NCBI GenBank assembly: GCA_013314735.1
Contig: JABUFD010000004.1
Span: forward strand, 1-64,000
Source of the DNA: Anaerolineae bacterium
Lineage (GTDB): Bacteria; Chloroflexota; Anaerolineae; Anaerolineales; Anaerolineaceae
Direction of reading: 5' to 3'
DNA length: 64,000 nucleotides
Below, piece after piece: positions 53,930-64,000 of the stretch (positions are counted from its first letter, which is position 1; each line of letters opens with the position of its first letter). The position numbers were made by a program, and so were the translations under genes. The notes under the pieces are model-generated. The model had not been told where the DNA came from. It did not search any database and was given only the letters and a program-made list of their open reading frames with translations.

Positions 53930-55333
53930 TTAACCCGGCAAATATTGAAATTGTGCCAGGAAGTTTGTCAAAAGCCCGAAGAATTGTGACGGGAAAATAC
54001 CGACAATTAATAATACTATCACACCCAAACCCAGAAGCAATAATTCGAACCATGCCGTAGGGAGAGGTTCACCTGCCATCTCTTTCTTTTTCAAAAAAGC
54101 AGAGAACAATCGCAATCCGCCAACCAGGAACCCGATCTGCCCAACCAGCAGCCACAACCCGCTGTTGAGAGATCCGTTTACCGCCAATGTTTCCACCAGG
54201 AACATCCGTGTTGAAAACCCCGCCAACAGCGGCAGGCCACCCACAGAAAAATATGCAGACAGAATCCCTATTGCTGCCGCAGGCGACCGGTGCAGTAATC
54301 CTTTCAATGCATCAAAATGGAATGATGTCCCGTGATGGCTCAGAACCGCAGCCGCCGCACCCCATACCGCAAAACCGATCAAGCGCCCAAAAAACAATAG
54401 GATCAATCCAATCGAATGAACACCTCCGGAAACACTGAGGGCAAGAAAGGCAAAGCCGTTCTCAAATAGCACCGCAAAACCAAACAACCGTCCCAGGTCA
54501 TCTTGAAAAGCCGACCAGACCCCGCTGAATACTATTAAGACCAATCCGCTGAAACTCAGCGCATTGGAAAGCATCCCGGAACTGCCCAACCAGGCGTAAT
54601 TTCTAAGAAAATGCTGAAAGATTAGAAAGAAGGCAGAAGGCATCAGGCTTAACAGGAAAAAAACCCGTACCGGGCGTACCTGGCTGGCGATTTTCGGAAC
54701 CCAAACAACAAAAGGGAATGCGGCCAACAACAATGAGAAACCAATCGCAAACAATACAAGCGTGTAAGAGAACATTTGAGCGTCCAACGGATTGGCCTCG
54801 ACACCGTCTGCGGCCCAACCCGCCAACAACAGAAACGGCAGGCTGAGTGTCATGAATATCAGGTAATACACCTCAGCCCTTCCCTGCCGATCCGGCAACC
54901 GGATCAACAACGGCAGACTGATCAGAACCGCCATGATCACAAACAATGCAGCGAACAAGAACGGCTGCACAGCCACGGCTCCTATCAGCAAGGCTGCCAT
55001 TGACACGCCATACCCCGCAAAAGAGGGAATTGGGTCAAATAGAAGACCGATCAGCAACCAGAAAGCGCAGATCAGGTTCAGGAACAGAACAGCCGCTCTA
55101 TCGGTGTTCTCCAACGCCAATGTTCTGCCCAGCAGGACCATTTCAGACGTTAGTTTGACTGGAATACCGCCCCAAAAATACGTCCGGTCAACTTCTATTG
55201 CCATGGCGCTGAGTGCCAGAAGCAGGCAGACTGCAATACCAATGGTCATTGAGATTCTGGCAAAACGGTGCAGGCTTACCAGCACAAGGCCCAGCCCAAG
55301 CGGTACAAACACCCACAGGAAAGCGCTGGTCAT
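53930..55333 (-). CDS. Complex-I/antiporter-like membrane protein (NuoN/MrpD-like, divergent)
   Basis: A 467-residue protein with about 14 membrane helices. FPFVVWVPKIA is the family's FPFHxWLP block of NuoL/M/N and MrpA/D, but the His is Val and the proton-path Lys five residues before the Pro is Leu (Leu202). The TM5 glutamate that follows a Trp in active members cannot be found. GGLPLLAGFSTRMFL is the second family block. The start ATG overlaps the stop of the gene before (ATGA) and has GAGGAGGAG upstream. It is likely a structural or inactive relative. Confidence 0.65.
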   Translation of the reverse strand: MTSAFLWVFVPLGLGLVLVSLHRFARISMTIGIAVCLLLALSAMAIEVDRTYFWGGIPVKLTSEMVLLGRTLALENTDRAAVLFLNLICAFWLLIGLLFDPIPSFAGYGVSMAALLIGAVAVQPFLFAALFVIMAVLISLPLLIRLPDRQGRAEVYYLIFMTLSLPFLLLAGWAADGVEANPLDAQMFSYTLVLFAIGFSLLLAAFPFVVWVPKIASQVRPVRVFFLLSLMPSAFFLIFQHFLRNYAWLGSSGMLSNALSFSGLVLIVFSGVWSAFQDDLGRLFGFAVLFENGFAFLALSVSGGVHSIGLILLFFGRLIGFAVWGAAAAVLSHHGTSFHFDALKGLLHRSPAAAIGILSAYFSVGGLPLLAGFSTRMFLVETLAVNGSLNSGLWLLVGQIGFLVGGLRLFSAFLKKKEMAGEPLPTAWFELLLLGLGVIVLLIVGIFPSQFFGLLTNFLAQFQYLPG

Positions 55334-55920
55334 GCTGACATCTCCTCCTCTGGCAAAAAATGCATCCACCATGCGCCAATCAGCGCAATGCCGAGGGTAA
55401 GACTTCCCAACAGCCCTGTAACGAGTACGGAATCAGATAATGCTGCATAGATAATTTCGAATCCGGAGATGATGCTTAACAGACCCACCACACTGCGAAT
55501 CCGCCGCGTAGACAGGGCAATTTGGAGCAGTCCCATACCGGCCAGCAGCAAGCCCTGGAAAAGCACCTCATTACCAACCGGCAGCCAATCCGCGGCCCCA
55601 GGTGCGAAAGAAAAAACCAACAACCAGACCACTAATGCGGAAAGAAATCGAAACAACAATCCAGCGGTACCAGCACGATACGAAAACAGCAATTCGTTCC
55701 GGGGTTGCGACGCGCCAAGAATGGCGCAGGACATCCAACCCACCACCAGTTTAACTGCCGCAAGGCCGATGGACCATTGCAATGAAATCAAAGCAAATAC
55801 AGCCAAGTATTGTAGTGCCAGGCAGGCAATGAACAGTCGCCAGTTCTCTGTCAGGAGCATTGCCAGTGATGCACCGATTAACAGAAGAAAAGCCAGGTTG
55901 GTCCAATTCAAGCCGTTCAC
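55330..55920 (-). CDS. Small multi-span membrane protein of the antiporter-like cluster
   Basis: The 196-residue protein has about six hydrophobic helices. The start is a GTG overlapping the stop of the preceding gene (CCGTGA) after GGGAGG. It sits where NuoJ/K or MrpC-like small subunits occur in complex-I-like operons, and a NuoK-like three-helix part may be present, but I see no sequence motif that proves it. Confidence 0.5.
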   Translation of the reverse strand: MNGLNWTNLAFLLLIGASLAMLLTENWRLFIACLALQYLAVFALISLQWSIGLAAVKLVVGWMSCAILGASQPRNELLFSYRAGTAGLLFRFLSALVVWLLVFSFAPGAADWLPVGNEVLFQGLLLAGMGLLQIALSTRRIRSVVGLLSIISGFEIIYAALSDSVLVTGLLGSLTLGIALIGAWWMHFLPEEEMSA

Positions 55921-57506
55921 GGTGTTCCTCCCATTCGCAGCAGTGTGAGGATTAACACCATCAGGATCAAAGCCCACAAAATTGCACCTTCCCCTTCGAG
56001 GATACGGGAGATGCCATCAACGACCGATTGCATCACGACATACAGCGTTTGCATTGCCATATATCCCCAGTCCGCTGACCGCTCACGGCGCCGCACACCA
56101 GAAGCGGTTGGACCGGGTGAAAAAATTGCTGGCACCCACCGGTTGACCAGATAAGCCACTCCCAGCGCTGCCACCACCGCAACCACTGACGCCCACCAGG
56201 TTCCTGTGTTTATCGTTACCGTTAGAAAGGAAGCGCCGGTAAACCATTGAACGCCCACCAGCAGGAGAAATCCGAACGGGTATAAGACTTTCATCCATAA
56301 CTCAACAGCATCAGATGGTTCGTCTGGACGGAAAGCATGCTTAAGGTAACCAAGCAGCAGCCAGATGAACACAAACAAAAACCCGATATCCAGCGCGTTA
56401 AATGGCAACACCAGCAGGCCTTCCCACCCCTGACTGCCAGGGGTGAAGGGTAAGCCGCTCAATCCCACAAAACCGGGCAGCATCAACCACCATTGCCCCG
56501 GTAAGCGGTAAGAATGTAACGATTGAAACGTACCAAACAATAGCAGGACAGTACTCCAGATCAAAGCGGCTTCGCCTTCACCGCGAACGATGCTAACTGT
56601 TGCCATCCCAGCCAACGCCGTCACCCAAAATGACCGCCCGGTCAATTCAGATGAGGCAAAGAAATACCGGATGACACCATACACCGATGCTGCCAGGGCA
56701 AGTATGGAAAGTATCACAGCCCACCCGGCAGGCATGACCAGTCCATCAAGCCGTGTAAGTAACGCCAGGCTGGAAGCTGGAACGACAAAACGCAGCAGAG
56801 TGCCGGCTTCGCGGCGCAGCGGAATTTCCCGGCTGAAAGGTACCAAAACAGGAAAAACCCCCAACCGCAAGCCGGCAGCCAGAAGAAACAGCAGTCCATT
56901 CCCGGCTTCAATCGAGGAGAAGTCCATCCCGCTCCCAACTGTGAATTGGCTCGATAAAAACGCCCAATACATCACAAACGTTCCGGCCAACCTGGCTGCG
57001 AAGGCCATGATTGCCTGGCGGTTCAGCAACTCCTCCCCGGACAGGCGAAGGTGAAAAACAATTTCGATCACATCCAGAAGTGTCCAGGAAAGGATCAGGC
57101 TCAATGGGTTCTGTGAAAGGATCGGGAACATCGCCAGAATTCCGAGCATCAGGTCCAGCGCCCATTCTGTCGACCGCTGGGACGAGGTGATTCGAACCGG
57201 AGCCGTCAACATGATTGCCATTAAGATGCTTGCGCAACAAAATAAAAAATGCCAGGCAGTGGCATCATATCCAAAGATGAGGTCATAGGATGTACCGCCA
57301 GTACCAAGCCATCCACGGATCACCAGGGCGGGAACTGAAACCCAACGATAAACCAGGATCGTGATCCAACTCAACAAACTTCCGGCCAAAGCAACGACCC
57401 ACGCCATTCCCATTGATGGACGCCATTTGTTAATCGCAAGAATTCCCAGGATGGAGAAAAATGGGAACAGGAACGGAAGCAGGTTGAGGATCAACGCGGG
57501 CAGCAT
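55917..57506 (-). CDS. Complex-I/antiporter-like membrane protein (NuoL/M-like, divergent)
   Basis: The 529-residue protein has about 14 membrane helices in the NuoL/M/N pattern. GLRLGVFPVLVPFSREIP aligns with the GxKxxxFPxHxWLPDA block, so Arg214 stands in for the TM7 Lys, and the His and WLP are lost. At the TM5 site SWTLLDVIE has Thr142 where active subunits have WE; Asp145 and Glu148 are nearby. LSGLPFTPGSQGWEG is the later family block. No quinone, iron-sulfur or NADH subunit genes are near. It is 20 bases after the hydantoinase gene. Confidence 0.65.
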   Translation of the reverse strand: MLPALILNLLPFLFPFFSILGILAINKWRPSMGMAWVVALAGSLLSWITILVYRWVSVPALVIRGWLGTGGTSYDLIFGYDATAWHFLFCCASILMAIMLTAPVRITSSQRSTEWALDLMLGILAMFPILSQNPLSLILSWTLLDVIEIVFHLRLSGEELLNRQAIMAFAARLAGTFVMYWAFLSSQFTVGSGMDFSSIEAGNGLLFLLAAGLRLGVFPVLVPFSREIPLRREAGTLLRFVVPASSLALLTRLDGLVMPAGWAVILSILALAASVYGVIRYFFASSELTGRSFWVTALAGMATVSIVRGEGEAALIWSTVLLLFGTFQSLHSYRLPGQWWLMLPGFVGLSGLPFTPGSQGWEGLLVLPFNALDIGFLFVFIWLLLGYLKHAFRPDEPSDAVELWMKVLYPFGFLLLVGVQWFTGASFLTVTINTGTWWASVVAVVAALGVAYLVNRWVPAIFSPGPTASGVRRRERSADWGYMAMQTLYVVMQSVVDGISRILEGEGAILWALILMVLILTLLRMGGTP

Positions 57507-59230: not shown

Positions 59231-59812
59231 TCAATCAAATGAATCAACCAACCACTCCGTGCCTGTTTCCTTGATAATCCCCGTAAAAAATTGGAGTTGC
59301 TGCTCGAGGGATAACGAAAACTCCGGCTGCCCGGCATACCGCCCCCCAGAGACTGCACGCTCACGCAGGGTCCGCCACAGGATTGTCCGCTCTTCATCAC
59401 GGATGACCAGGTCATTTAAAGTGGTGGCGGAAAGCAATCTCGCGCCAGTTGTATACAAAAACGTCAGCCGTTTCCAGCCGCCGGCAAGCACAGGGTGCGG
59501 AAGACTTTCCAACGGGCCCAATGTGATCTTGTAATACTCCTCGTGTGCGTGCGGATGGTCGGGTTGATCACGGAACAAATCCACGCGCCGAACCAATTCA
59601 TGTCCCCGCATTGCGGCGGCAAATTGAATCCGCCAACGCTGCTCTTCCCCAAACGCCCCGGTCTGGTAAAAGGCAAGATGATCGACATCAATCAGTTTTG
59701 GCGCACTGCGCAGGGGTATTCGGTACCAACCCAGCAGCCGGGCGATATCGAGGTCGTGTGGATTGGGCATCACCCCCACCAGGATCAAATCGGTACTGAC
59801 TGGTAAACCCAT
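59231..59812 (-). CDS. Conserved-looking protein of unknown function at the end of the ATPase operon
   Basis: A 193-residue soluble protein, no signal or membrane helix. It is rich in aromatic and charged residues (GWYRIPLR, HEEYYKITLG, GGWKRLTFLYTTG) and starts with a strand-turn pattern LILVGVMPNPHDLDIARLLG. I do not recognise the family. The ATG at 59812 is preceded by GGGAGG at 5 bases; a TTG at 59842 overlaps the gamma stop. The gene is the last of the ATPase transcript, where beta and epsilon would be in a classical operon. Confidence 0.6.
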   Translation of the reverse strand: MGLPVSTDLILVGVMPNPHDLDIARLLGWYRIPLRSAPKLIDVDHLAFYQTGAFGEEQRWRIQFAAAMRGHELVRRVDLFRDQPDHPHAHEEYYKITLGPLESLPHPVLAGGWKRLTFLYTTGARLLSATTLNDLVIRDEERTILWRTLRERAVSGGRYAGQPEFSLSLEQQLQFFTGIIKETGTEWLVDSFD

Positions 59813-59838
59813 GCCAACCTCCCTTGTTGCTGACAGCA

Positions 59839-60747
59839 TCAACCCAGCAAACCGGCCCCTGCTGCCAGTTCCTGCATTTCCTGTGTAATGGTCTGGCGCC
59901 GGTACATTTGCAGTATTTCGGTCATTTCATCGATCAGGCGTTCCGAATTCTGTCCCGCTTCTTCCATCAGTGAATACCGGGCGGCATGTTCACTTGCTGC
60001 TGAGTTTAACAGGCACTGATATACAGCCATCGTCGCCAGTTGCGATAGCACACGTGTGTAAATACCAACTGGATTCGTTTCTATGATCGGCGGGGGGAAC
60101 ATCTCCTCCTCACGCCCGTTCACGTCAAACCCGAGGACAGGTGGGATGATGCGGGTGATGGTCGGTGTATAAAATCCAGGTCCTCGATAGCGGTTGTACA
60201 CCACATCAACGGTATCAATTTGATAACCCTCATACATCGCCAGCCAGCGGGATGTCAGGGCATGTGCCATCCGGTAATCGGGCAGGCTGGTGGTGGAAAG
60301 CCCCTTTGCCCAGCCGATTGAAAAACCAGCCTTATGCATCATGCGATAGAGTCGGCTGCCCAACACCCACATTTCCACGGCTGGTTTTTCGGAGGATTCA
60401 ATATGATCCAATGTTTGTCCTGCATATCGTAGCAGCACAGAATTAAATCCGCCGCACAAACCCCGCTCACTTCCGATGATCAAAATGATTCCCTTGTGGG
60501 TGAGAGGCGCCAGATCGCCCTCGAAACGTGCAGGAGGTTGTTTGCCCCGCAGCATATTTCCCGGCAAATCAGTGATCAACATCGCCAGAATCTCACGGTA
60601 GTGATCCTCAAATGCCTGTACACTCGCTTGTTTGCGCACGGCCGACTGCCAGCTGCCAAGAGAAATCGTCCGCAGCGCCCCCAGGATGGGGCGCACAGAA
60701 GAAATATTGTTCAGCCGGGCAGCCACCCGTTCAAAATCTTCAGCCAT
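59839..60747 (-). CDS. atpG: ATP synthase gamma subunit
   Basis: Gamma is the central rotor shaft of F1. The 302-residue protein has the N-terminal helix RVAARLNNISSVRPILGALR, IIGSERGLCGGFN, and the C-terminal coiled coil MYRRQTITQEMQELAAGAG. The usual first helix start (IRxRIxSVxNTxKIT) is altered to RLNNISSVRPILGALRTIS, marking a divergent ATPase. It is 3 bases after the DarA-like gene. Confidence 0.92.
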   Translation of the reverse strand: MAEDFERVAARLNNISSVRPILGALRTISLGSWQSAVRKQASVQAFEDHYREILAMLITDLPGNMLRGKQPPARFEGDLAPLTHKGIILIIGSERGLCGGFNSVLLRYAGQTLDHIESSEKPAVEMWVLGSRLYRMMHKAGFSIGWAKGLSTTSLPDYRMAHALTSRWLAMYEGYQIDTVDVVYNRYRGPGFYTPTITRIIPPVLGFDVNGREEEMFPPPIIETNPVGIYTRVLSQLATMAVYQCLLNSAASEHAARYSLMEEAGQNSERLIDEMTEILQMYRRQTITQEMQELAAGAGLLG

Positions 60748-60750
60748 GGC

Positions 60751-61077
60751 CTAGAATGTCTCAATCCTTTCCACCGTCCACATGAAGACGATCGCCCCGC
60801 CAACGCCTGCCACCACGGGGGTTGCCCCCAGTGAAAAATTGCCGCTGCCTTCTTTCTGGGTTACAGCCACGTCAATCCGGCAATTTTCCCCAATCAACGA
60901 CAGCACTCGATCTACCTCGTTTTCATTGACAATGATGAACATGGTTAACTGTGATTGCCGCAAAACACCGCCTTCGGTTTCGGTAAATGTAGCGGTGAAA
61001 CCGGCATTGATCAAGGCATTTAATACATACTCCGCTTCTTCGCGCGGCACAATCGCCATCATCATTTTCTTCGCCAT
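60751..61077 (-). CDS. Cyclic-di-AMP receptor-like PII-type protein (DarA/PstA family)
   Basis: The 108-residue protein matches the c-di-AMP-receptor family (formerly DUF970): KKMMMAIVPREEAEYVLNAL, then AGFTATFTETEGGVLRQSQLT (key T, GG, L), VDRVLSLIGENCR in the middle, and GGAIVFMWTVERIETF at the end. In Firmicutes DarA/PstA binds c-di-AMP as a trimer. Here it lies between atpA and atpG, 46 bases after atpA and 3 bases before atpG, so it is part of the ATPase transcript. Confidence 0.88.
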   Translation of the reverse strand: MAKKMMMAIVPREEAEYVLNALINAGFTATFTETEGGVLRQSQLTMFIIVNENEVDRVLSLIGENCRIDVAVTQKEGSGNFSLGATPVVAGVGGAIVFMWTVERIETF

Positions 61078-61123: not shown

Positions 61124-62785
61124 TCACGCAACCGGCTTCTTCCGCAGCCAGTAAGCGTGGAATTCCTGAAGGACAGCAATCATATCAGACTTCAGGTTGT
61201 CTGTCATCTCCCCGGTCTGGTTAATCTCAATTTCTATCGCAGGGGCATGGTGATCGACAAACTCATGCATTGCAGCTTCATAGGAAGGAATGTCATCCAG
61301 GGCGACATCATTCAATGACCCATTGACTGCAGCAAACAACGACACAATTTGCATCCCAAGGCTCAACGGCTGATGTAAATTCTGCATCAGAATCGCCTGG
61401 AGGCGCTGACCGGTTTCGATCTGACGCCGGGTTTCAGGATCCACATCTGTGCCAAACCGTGCGAAACGGGCCACTTCCTCGAACTGCGCCAAACGCAACC
61501 GCAAGTCTCCGGAGAGAGTGCGCATCACCCGCGTCTGCGCAGCACCGCCCACACGAGAAACGGATTTGCCCACATCCACCGCTGGTTTGATTCCCCGGTT
61601 GAATTGGTCCGCGTCGAGGACAATCTGCCCATCGGTGATCGAGATCAGATTGGTCGGAATGTATGCAGAAATATTACCCCGCTGCGTGGTAACAATTGGC
61701 AGGGCGGTGATGGAAGCACCATTCTTGACCTTGCACGCGCGTTCCAGCAGGCGGGAATGCAGGTAAAAGATATCGCCCGGATACGCCTCGCGCCCCGGCG
61801 GCCGGCGCAGCAGCAGGCTCAATTCGCGGTAGGCATCTGCATGCTTGCTGAGATCGTCATAAACGATCAACACATCACGTCCCATTTTCAGCATATATTC
61901 GGCTATGGTACATCCCGCGTAAGGCGCAAGATAACGCAGCGCGGGTGGATCATCCGGGCTGGCGACAACCACCGTGGTGTATTTCATCGCCCCTTCGGCC
62001 TGTAGGGTTTCGATCACAGAAAGGGTAGTTGATTTTTTCTGGCCAATGGCAACATAGACACAATTCACGTCCTCATCGCGCTGCGCGAGAATTGCATCCA
62101 CCGCCACGGCAGTCTTCCCTGTCTGACGGTCTCCTACTATCAACTCCCGCTGCCCCTTTCCAATTGGCAGCAATGCATCAATGATTTTGATCCCGGTTTG
62201 CAGGGATTCATGCACCGGCTCACGTTGAACAATCCCCGGTGGGTTTCGCTCCAGCACCCAAAAATCTGAAGCAGTAACCTGTCCACCGCCATCCAGCGGA
62301 TCCCCTAATGGCGTAACAACCCGACCGATTAAGCGCGGTCCAACCGGAATCCGAAGGCGTTCGCCGGTGCTTGTTGCCAGGTCACCCCCGCTGATCCCTT
62401 CATCGGCGCCCAGCAGAATCACATCGAGATGGTTGTGATCCAGGTTGAGCACCAGTCCCCGCACTCCAGTGCTGAATTCCACCAGGCCGTCAGTGCGCAC
62501 ATGCGGTAAACCGCTCAAGGTGGCAACGCCATTCCCGATATGTTGAACCGTCCCTACATCCTTGAATTTTACATTGGAGCTGACATTGTCAAGGTCTGTG
62601 GTGACAACGCCGGTTAATCCGCCAAGGCGCGCCTGCGGCCGCTTCTTTTTGCGTTCTTCGCGCAGGTTATGGCTGAGTTCATCATAGGTTTGCACCTCTG
62701 CCTTGTGAAAAGTTTCATCACTGGCAGCAACCCGCAGCTGCTCAATGCGTTTCTGCATTTTTTTTGTCAGTTCAGATGTGCTCAT
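61124..62785 (-). CDS. atpA: ATP synthase alpha subunit
   Basis: Alpha carries the noncatalytic nucleotide sites of F1. The 553-residue protein has the Walker A GDRQTGKTAVAVD, VYDDLSKHADAYRE and the conserved PGREAYPGDIFYLHSRLLER. It is about 50 residues longer than usual, with a charged helical N-terminal extension (KKMQKRIEQL, REERKKKRPQ). The ATG at 62785 has AAAGGAT upstream; a start 17 codons earlier would overlap atpF. Confidence 0.96.
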   Translation of the reverse strand: MSTSELTKKMQKRIEQLRVAASDETFHKAEVQTYDELSHNLREERKKKRPQARLGGLTGVVTTDLDNVSSNVKFKDVGTVQHIGNGVATLSGLPHVRTDGLVEFSTGVRGLVLNLDHNHLDVILLGADEGISGGDLATSTGERLRIPVGPRLIGRVVTPLGDPLDGGGQVTASDFWVLERNPPGIVQREPVHESLQTGIKIIDALLPIGKGQRELIVGDRQTGKTAVAVDAILAQRDEDVNCVYVAIGQKKSTTLSVIETLQAEGAMKYTTVVVASPDDPPALRYLAPYAGCTIAEYMLKMGRDVLIVYDDLSKHADAYRELSLLLRRPPGREAYPGDIFYLHSRLLERACKVKNGASITALPIVTTQRGNISAYIPTNLISITDGQIVLDADQFNRGIKPAVDVGKSVSRVGGAAQTRVMRTLSGDLRLRLAQFEEVARFARFGTDVDPETRRQIETGQRLQAILMQNLHQPLSLGMQIVSLFAAVNGSLNDVALDDIPSYEAAMHEFVDHHAPAIEIEINQTGEMTDNLKSDMIAVLQEFHAYWLRKKPVA

Positions 62786-62808
62786 GGATTTATCCTTTGG
62801 TGTTTCTG

Positions 62809-63600
62809 TCACGCAGCCACTTCCTTCGGCATCCAATCATCCAAGGTTTCCCGGACTTCATCACGGAGGTCATTCAACCGGGAAGCGATCGAATTTTCCA
62901 CGATCATATCGCCAATGCGAATCCGTGTTCCCATGATTAATGAAGGGTCTATCTCAATTTCCACGCTGACGTTGCGGTTTGCCAATGCGCTGAAGGTGCG
63001 AACCAGCAGGCGCTGTTGTTCCGGTGAAAGTTCATGGGCGGTGGCAACATACACGGTCGGTTTGCGTTCCCCCAACGACTCCCGCAAAGTTTGCACCTGG
63101 CGAATGTTCCCCCGCCCCAGGTTCCACAACGTATCATTGATCTCCCTGACAAAAATCTCGTTCAGCTCCATCGGGGCCGCTTTCGATATCACCCGCCCGC
63201 CGACTTCTATGATCGCATCGAGCACTTTCTGATGGTATTCATCCATCGCCTGGGTCTGCAATGCGATTGCCTCAGTACTTGCTTCGTTGAGAATTTGTTC
63301 TGCCTCCTCGCGAGCGCGTGCGAGCATGCGTTCATGGTTCAGGGCAATCTGGTCTTCAGCCTTGTTGATGATCTCTGCAACCATCTCGTCGGCCTGTTCC
63401 AGTTGTGCTGCCAACGAAGCACGCAACTTCTCGGCTTCCTGTTTTTGGGCAGTTAGCTCCTCAATTAATTGCCGCTTTTCAGCTGCACGCTTTTCTACTG
63501 CGGCTACAACTTTTTTGAAAAGGAGTGCCCACAGTAAAAAAGCAAGGATCAGGAAATTGACGATTTCAAAGACGATTGTTGGGATACTAATATCCAGCAT
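62809..63600 (-). CDS. atpF: ATP synthase fused b-delta subunit
   Basis: The 263-residue protein begins with a b-type membrane helix (about residues 9-28, IVFEIVNFLILAFLLWALLF) and a long charged coiled coil to about 135. From about residue 180 it matches the C-terminal domain of delta/OSCP: VYVATAHELSPEQQRLLVRTF, then VDPSLIMG-like IDPSLIMGTRIRIGDMIVENS and a final LDDL-type helix. A plain b subunit is about 160-170 residues. No separate delta gene lies before atpA, so the fusion supplies the stator tip, as b-delta fusions do in mycobacteria. Confidence 0.88.
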   Translation of the reverse strand: MLDISIPTIVFEIVNFLILAFLLWALLFKKVVAAVEKRAAEKRQLIEELTAQKQEAEKLRASLAAQLEQADEMVAEIINKAEDQIALNHERMLARAREEAEQILNEASTEAIALQTQAMDEYHQKVLDAIIEVGGRVISKAAPMELNEIFVREINDTLWNLGRGNIRQVQTLRESLGERKPTVYVATAHELSPEQQRLLVRTFSALANRNVSVEIEIDPSLIMGTRIRIGDMIVENSIASRLNDLRDEVRETLDDWMPKEVAA

Positions 63601-63622: not shown

Positions 63623-63895
63623 TCAGCTGAAGAAACGGTTCAGTAGTGGGTTCGCAAAAATTAAGATCAGCACCACAAGGAGAACATAAATTGCCGTCGA
63701 TTCCAACAATGCCATCGAAATGATCAGCGTGGTCCTCAGGTCACCAGCCGCTTCTGGCTGACGGGCAATGCCTTCCAATGCCTTTTGCGCCGCTTTGCCT
63801 TCTGATAAGGCAGGCACCGCAGTACCCAGCACAATCGATGCACCGCTGACAATGATGGTTACAACGGTGATTAAAACTTCAGGGGACATGTCCAT
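63623..63895 (-). CDS. atpE: ATP synthase c subunit
   Basis: The 90-residue hairpin protein has two membrane helices and the loop ARQPEAAGD. Helix 2 carries [12 protein letters not shown] with Glu65, Ser66, Thr67 and Tyr70 at the positions that bind Na+ in Ilyobacter tartaricus. Helix 1 carries Glu32 where that enzyme has Gln32, so the ion site has two carboxylates. GGAGG precedes the ATG. The ion (Na+ or H+) cannot be settled from sequence alone. Confidence 0.95.
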
Positions 63896-63924: not shown

Positions 63925-64000
63925 TTAAGCTGCCGAATGGGCAGCATCATCAACTGATTCATCTTGTTCACCCTCATCAACGGTTGCGACACCGGCCGCA
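63925..64000 (-). CDS. C-terminal end of an upstream gene, probably ATP synthase a subunit (partial)
   Basis: The minus-strand frame entering from the window edge reads 24 codons, acidic and alanine-rich (VDEGEQDESVDDAAHSAA), before a TAA. A GGAGG site for atpE follows 12 bases later. In F/N-type operons the gene before atpE is atpB, so this is presumably its C-terminal tail. The fragment carries no motif that would prove it. Confidence 0.55.
   Translation of the reverse strand, partial: AAGVATVDEGEQDESVDDAAHSAA

Follow-up and report, generated by a model that had tools for sequence, protein, structure and literature searches.

The DarA/PstA-like protein encoded by dar, a gene lying between the alpha and gamma genes of a divergent ATPase operon in an Anaerolineaceae genome, is probably a dedicated PII-like nucleotide-sensing regulatory subunit of that N-type-like rotary ATPase. 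We established the family of the protein, its predicted fold, its fixed operon position, its exclusive co-occurrence with the ATPase in the genomes searched and the conservation of an altered pocket. The window analysed, the first 64,000 nucleotides of contig JABUFD010000004.1, carries dar at 60751-61077 on the minus strand as a complete ORF of 108 amino acids with an ATG start, an AGGA Shine-Dalgarno-like sequence being present 9 bases upstream of the ATG; the plus-strand frame over the same interval contains stops. The gene lies 46 bases from the atpA stop (61124) and 3 bases from the atpG ATG (60747). An earlier sequence-only reading had described a complete DarA/PstA-family ORF 46 bases after alpha and 3 before gamma, leaving the minus strand unstated, and both the spacing and the Pfam search agree with that description.

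By profile, structure, tree and alignment, dar belongs to an ATPase-linked subfamily of the PII-like CdAMP_rec proteins. Its product matched the Pfam CdAMP_rec profile (PF06153) at 56.7 bits (E 3.3e-15), above the gathering score of 27, and the NCBIfam DarA equivalog model (NF058593) at 58.3 bits, below the curated cut-off of 140; the DarA model was matched by all 26 members from the family carrier genomes (best E 4.6e-18). By sequence, the product matched PstA of S. aureus (1.6e-10) and Listeria (2.7e-8) and DarA/YaaQ of B. subtilis (3.8e-8), and the nearest solved structures were PstA/DarA-type chains (1.6e-10 to 2.9e-7). An AlphaFold monomer model, built with a 53-row alignment (51 ATPase-linked and 2 ordinary sequences), had a pLDDT of 80.4, with residues 75-85 under 50. 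When this model was used in Foldseek, the top 11 rows were all of the PstA/DarA type (1.6e-8 to 1.8e-6). In VIA-align, PstA/DarA structures gave Z scores of 13.4-14.3 and classic PII proteins 12.7 and below, which is a small step of less than 2 Z. In predicted fold (4wk1, Z 14.3, rmsd 1.9, 86 residues aligned) and in length, the protein therefore resembles PstA/DarA, the c-di-AMP receptor of Firmicutes. It also shares its predicted fold with GlnB and GlnK (best rows rmsd 1.7-2.1, 81-87 aligned), which are trimeric regulators of transporters and enzymes according to PMC12435418, but has a short T-loop with GGxL and, by eye, no Walker-like B-loop motif. The presumed effector loop is weakly conserved and was modelled with low confidence, so no docking site can be named.

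The dar copy is not merely the DarA of this genome, since two further CdAMP_rec genes are found elsewhere in it. These belong to the same Pfam family and are adjacent (contig C9, about 793.96-794.47 kb), but unlike dar they keep GGFL, lie 9 bases apart and are away from ATPase genes. In the locus extracted around them (L037 8839-9539, contig C9 about 793.8-794.5 kb), the second gene is short (88 aa) and reads GGFLRRGQ. Adjacent pairs of this kind occur in many family genomes among the matches listed.

The genes around dar are all on the minus strand. On the upstream side, atpA (alpha, 61124-62836) scored 646 bits against TIGR00962, over the cut-off; from the listed TTG start its N-terminus is about 67 residues longer than that profile, and the start codon is uncertain. 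It is preceded by a fused b/delta stator subunit (62809-63600, 263 aa), in which PF00430 and PF00213 occur in one protein and for which the best NCBIfam match was alt_F1F0_F0_B at 92.6 bits (cut-off 224.7); a separate delta gene is absent from the cluster. Further upstream are atpE (c subunit, 63623-63895, 90 aa), which carries Glu32, Glu65, Ser66, Thr67 and Tyr70, and the 3' end of atpB (subunit a, 63925-64000), where the operon runs on beyond the window. Position 66 of the c subunit, which bears on ion specificity, was Ser in 35 and Thr in 25 of 60 sequences. Contig C12, read past the window, continues with a 103-aa protein in the place of AtpR (64596-64907), an AtpQ-like protein (64901-65224; PF09527, 3.5e-15), epsilon (65238-65594) and beta (65587-67008). 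Downstream of dar lies atpG (gamma, 59839-60747, 302 aa; PF00231, 4.6e-42). The operon order is thus beta-epsilon-Q-R-a-c-b/delta-alpha-dar-gamma.

N-type ATPases are defined in PMC11738941 by the order beta-epsilon-X-X-a-c-(b delta)-alpha-gamma. The operon shares this order and the fused b/delta, which rule out an ordinary F1Fo operon, and differs in the gene added between alpha and gamma. All five NCBIfam alternate F1F0 models scored below their cut-offs (alpha, TIGR03324, 601 against 750; beta 612/752; a 181/302; b 93/225; c 79/131), and the protein at the AtpR place had no significant Pfam match and none to AtpR (PF12966; the best E value, 0.13, was to another family). Because of these low scores and the missing AtpR match, we call the enzyme N-type-like, and it appears to be a divergent member of that type. 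No second atpA above the cut-off was found in the host genome, which also encodes an A-type ATPase (contig C11). Among the 26 carrier genomes, 8 matched the A-type catalytic subunit at 1e-100 or better, none of them over the curated cut-off of the model, and the other 18 did not. When three alpha candidates were scored per genome, G015 and G046 had one each at 1e-140, and in these two genomes the dar-linked ATPase may be the sole rotary ATPase. In the Chloroflexota genus T78, 18 of the 20 genomes considered are reported to have a single N-type ATPase (PMC11738941).

We also considered riboswitch control of the operon; a cmscan search of eight carrier loci yielded two tRNAs and no riboswitch, and this candidate was rejected. 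Two other features of the window were noted. Directly after atpG is a 203-aa ORF (59231-59842, minus strand) without a significant Pfam match, whose homologs among the loci compared were limited to a same-genus contig (L039/L070, after gamma) and L098 (upstream of beta). In addition, three successive hydrophobic ORFs occupy 53930-57506 on the minus strand; one is NuoN/Mrp-D-like (TIGR01770, 48 bits, far under the cut-off), and neither of the other two matched a family significantly.

The link between dar and the ATPase was examined in 101 genomes of the family. A match to dar at 1e-3 was found in 88 of them, and the scores split into two classes: a strong ortholog (4.5e-17 or better) was present in 26 genomes, the next-best match being 8.2e-11. 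The b/delta type was likewise bimodal (26 genomes at 6.1e-35 or better, next 1.4e-18). The two sets comprised the identical 26 genomes, and neither gene was found in the other 75 (26/26 versus 0/75; Fisher P 1e-24, a value inflated by kinship, with some of the genomes incomplete). In the family relatives dar followed alpha in 25 of 25, and gamma came next in 22. The remaining three relatives all belong to genus g33, where dar is still on alpha and is separated by about 8.2 kb from gamma, an ORF of 286-288 aa found at that distance downstream in all three. In the one such locus for which genes were called (L043 9930-17985), visual inspection of the insert suggests a glycosidase and sugar ABC transporter operon under a LacI-type regulator. 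One locus fetched among the relatives (L064, from G036) proved to hold an ordinary DarA (27% identity) without an ATPase match.

We then scanned one genome per species (84,980 species) with two short peptide patterns taken from the alignment, a scan that misses members with other motifs and whose named loci overlap the family genomes (for example L070 and G013), so that the two samples are not independent. It returned 70 named loci, and alpha was the next upstream match in 68. The two without an ATPase match were ordinary DarA genes in Clostridia (Oscillospiraceae and Clostridiaceae). Gamma lay downstream in 64 of the 68 loci, the other four being three loci of the genus g33 type and one contig end. 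A 4-base stop/start overlap joined alpha and dar in 47 of 68 loci, and 65 of 68 gaps fell between -40 and 60; between dar and gamma, 62 of 64 gaps fell in the same range (median 7). Outliers were kept in these counts (L104, L112 and L129 for alpha, with the L129 alpha match in two pieces; L104 and L112 for gamma). The window dar, with gaps of 46 and 3, has no alpha overlap. All 68 loci were labelled as Chloroflexota lineages, mostly Anaerolineae, Anaerolineales or Anaerolineaceae, and include Pelolinea submarina (NZ_AP018437.1; dar at L093 7995-8315), which is in culture and has a completed genome. The arrangement was also carried by G111, a genome from outside the class with 8% contamination and 640 contigs, where it may reflect contamination or transfer. 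The sequence-only reading had proposed checking the atpA-darA-atpG order and named a random position in relatives as its refutation; the position is instead fixed, and the co-occurrence in 101 genomes together with atpA as the next upstream match in 68 of 70 loci excludes a chance neighbour. Taken together, these results make a dedicated link of dar to the ATPase well supported. This part of the proposed connection between a sensor and an ATPase holds through fixed position and exclusive co-occurrence; the partner, however, is not an ordinary F1Fo enzyme but an N-type-like one, in a genome that has an A-type ATPase as well.

A wider search covered 400 genomes of the phylum. A strong dar match (1.2e-34 or better) occurred in only eight, the next (4.6e-21) being ordinary DarA-like, and these eight genomes also took the top eight places for alpha, at 600 bits or more. 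In the ninth, G473 (587 bits), alpha lies directly against gamma without dar; since this is the nearest dar-free alpha, related enzymes exist without the gene. A second N-type-like ATPase accompanies the dar-bearing one in six genomes of a single genus, G010 and G095 being examples. In these six second ATPases (L166, L167 and L217-L220), in L170 and in G473, dar was not matched and the interval between alpha and gamma is too tight to hold it, so its presence in other N-type-like operons was rejected for these loci. A tree of alpha subunits, for which 34 of the 67 dar rows (taken alternately) and the full set of 25 dar-free rows went through a quick search without bootstrap, placed the dar-bearing alphas on one side of one branch (SH-aLRT 98). 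Most simply, dar would have been recruited once into a single ATPase lineage, with no loss seen in the genomes searched.

In all six genomes of that genus, beta of the second N-type-like operon is immediately preceded by a gene of some 160 aa with ACT-domain matches; the two scanned gave ACT_9 at 64-66 bits (L166 13614-14093, minus strand; L167 5777-6259, plus strand), and ACT matches were also found in L217-L220. A cell of this kind would have two rotary ATPases and a separate small-ligand sensor gene for each, which makes the recruitment of sensors look like a theme among N-type ATPases. Separately, seven loci (L168, L169 and L171-L175) contain clusters of a and fused b/delta, with c in four, and have no alpha, beta or gamma match within about 5-10 kb on either side of b/delta; these F0-type genes apparently stand apart from F1. 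A NuoN-like match (24-25% identity) lies near five of the seven.

The ATPase-linked DarA-like proteins formed one side of a branch with support of 100 in a tree of few columns (69 versus 52 rows). This single group, together with the two other CdAMP_rec genes in the genome, rules out an ordinary DarA that landed in the operon by accident. To describe the pocket, we compared 69 distinct ATPase-linked with 51 ordinary sequences, numbered on S. aureus PstA; L132, at a contig end, and L139, whose N-terminus is broken or shortened, were excluded, and L137 and L138 were taken as ordinary. In the window, the T-loop part of the predicted nucleotide pocket is the motif GGVLRQSQ (residues 36-43; codons 60949-60972, minus strand), which aligns to G34-N41 of S. 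aureus PstA and takes the form GG[MV]LRQ[SA]Q in most of the subfamily. Several positions are retained. The Thr28 equivalent was present in 69 of 69 ATPase-linked and 46 of 51 ordinary proteins, GGxL in 67 of 69 (Gly34 67, Gly35 69, Leu37 69) and the Phe99 equivalent in 68 of 69. Other positions are replaced throughout the subfamily: that of Phe36 is never aromatic (0/69; Met 55, Val 12, Ala 1, Leu 1) whereas ordinary proteins have Phe or Trp in 51 of 51; that of Asn41 holds Gln in 63 of 69, with Glu in 3, Ser in 2 and Tyr in 1 (ordinary Asn in 41/51); that of Gly47 is Ala in 59 of 69 (ordinary Gly in 45/51); that of Ala39 is Gln in 68 of 69 and that of Met101 is Trp in 69 of 69, each seen in 1 of 51 ordinary proteins. 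The window protein itself has Thr28, the GGxL turn, Phe99 and GGA in common with PstA/DarA, and differs from it by F36 to Val (mostly Met in the subfamily), N41 to Gln, G47 to Ile (mostly Ala in the subfamily), A39 to Gln, M101 to Trp and Arg26 to Thr, Arg26 being missing also from 24 of 51 ordinary relatives.

Sixteen columns were conserved at 90% or more, and six of them are pocket columns (P 6e-4). Given these conserved columns and the subfamily-wide replacements, the nucleotide cleft appears to be under constraint but rebuilt. Two papers (PMC4316997, PMC4475381) set out how PstA contacts c-di-AMP and how its mutants behave: Phe36 of GGFL stacks on adenine, T28A abolishes saturable binding by the S. 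aureus protein (PMC4316997), and the Listeria protein binds less tightly when Phe36 or Asn41 is changed to Ala, at 7 uM for F36A and about 140 uM, without saturation, for N41A (PMC4475381). The Listeria mutants are not decisive here, because they change these residues to Ala and the ATPase-linked subfamily has Met or Val and Gln. We regard c-di-AMP as the likeliest candidate ligand of these proteins, and the chance that they bind it as about even. The earlier assignment of the gene product as a DarA/PstA receptor was right as to the family and too narrow as to DarA itself: the protein is a diverged sister (58 bits against the equivalog cut-off of 140) that is genetically tied to an ATPase and has two c-di-AMP-contacting side chains replaced subfamily-wide.

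The messenger is likely to be available. A single diadenylate cyclase gene (302 aa) is present in the host genome, and a 442-aa gene that we take to be CdaR follows it directly on the same strand. A search for such cyclases had also been proposed, their absence being the second possible refutation; they occur in the host and, as a DAC domain, in all 26 carrier genomes. As 11 of 14 control genomes were positive too, the finding is permissive only: it permits the c-di-AMP reading and is not specific to carriers. The c-di-AMP riboswitch RF00379 was found on contig C1 of the host genome (73.7 bits) and in 2 of 14 controls.

These observations suggest how the protein may act. dar would be made from the ATPase transcript, and the stop/start overlap present in most relatives would couple its translation to that of alpha. 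The product is predicted to form a homotrimer, as PstA and DarA do, and this trimer may bind the ATPase, with alpha or the alpha3beta3 head as the likeliest site, since the threefold symmetry of the head matches that of a trimer. A nucleotide, likeliest c-di-AMP and possibly another adenine nucleotide, would sit between the subunits; once bound, it would reshape the loops and so switch or tune ATP hydrolysis or synthesis and ion transport. PstA-type proteins are described as trimeric, with a current model in which c-di-AMP-bound loops catch C3-symmetric partners (PMC12435418). Because ligand-free DarA/PstA is the harmful form in B. subtilis and Listeria (PMC7857571, PMC12802241), our first guess is that the free dar product would restrain the enzyme and the ligand would release it. 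The missing Arg26, the weakly conserved effector loop, the lack of overlap in the window and the related dar-free enzyme of G473 all count against a sensor subunit. The full proposal, in which a trimeric DarA-like subunit on the alpha3beta3 head opens a main rotary ATPase to direct gating by c-di-AMP or an adenine nucleotide and forms the first built-in second-messenger receptor of such an enzyme, is more tentative than the role of sensor subunit as such, and we place it slightly short of an even chance.

Within the role of sensor subunit, and adding nothing to its overall probability, the ligand could be ATP, ADP or another adenine nucleotide instead of c-di-AMP; the protein would then be an energy-charge brake in which the cleft was kept and its specificity changed. 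The replacements set against 51 ordinary proteins (F36 to Met or Val, N41 to Gln, A39 to Gln in 68 of 69, M101 to Trp in 69 of 69 and G47 to Ala) fit such a change, and Gln39 of the classic PII T-loop is used with ATP and 2-oxoglutarate (PMC4316997). However, the equivalents of Thr28, GGxL and Phe99 that c-di-AMP uses are retained, the alignment shows no Walker-like B-loop motif by eye, PstA itself is reported in PMC4475381 not to bind ATP, and every one of the 26 carrier genomes has a diadenylate cyclase; we consider this variant rather unlikely.

Two further explanations leave out either the ATPase as target or the ligand, and we regard both as improbable, each to the same degree and clearly more so than the adenine-nucleotide variant. 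The gene might ride on the ATPase transcript for dosage while its product has a different target, as may also hold for ordinary DarA. Operon membership by itself is no proof of interaction, and PMC12802241 describes PstA as lacking known partners and acting on cell-wide physiology; yet a carried gene of this kind is hard to square with 0 of 70 named loci holding a subfamily member off the ATPase (both ATPase-free loci carry ordinary DarA), with the joint presence and absence of dar and the ATPase type across 101 genomes, with dar remaining on alpha where the operon is split, or with the further CdAMP_rec genes that coexist in the host genome. Alternatively, the protein might be an assembly factor or structural subunit that has lost ligand sensing, for which the fixed place between alpha and gamma and the altered pocket both speak. 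Against this, the best conserved columns of the protein include those of the pocket (P 6e-4), a pattern not easily explained unless a ligand is bound, although a trimer interface could also constrain them. The nucleotide-sensing subunit thus remains the reading we prefer.

A comparable tie of ion or osmotic signalling to rotary ATPase genes is provided by Na+-I riboswitches, which occur beside ATP synthase and V-ATPase genes, sometimes together with c-di-AMP riboswitches (PMC9337991). Unlike dar, they control expression at the RNA level and place no protein receptor in the operon. The titles and abstract openings listed from an open-access collection, with subscription papers mostly outside the search, contained no description of the present arrangement, of c-di-AMP with a rotary ATPase or of Anaerolineae with an N-ATPase. 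According to PMC7857571, no function of DarA had been identified as of 2021, and a December 2025 paper still gives the binding partners of PstA as unknown (PMC12802241). A fixed genomic partner makes the question of the PstA/DarA-family target directly testable in one lineage, which has a cultured member in Pelolinea submarina. If the proposed role is true, it would connect a primary ion pump with a messenger whose known role is in K+ and osmotic balance, and it would show how one member of the orphan PstA/DarA family acts.
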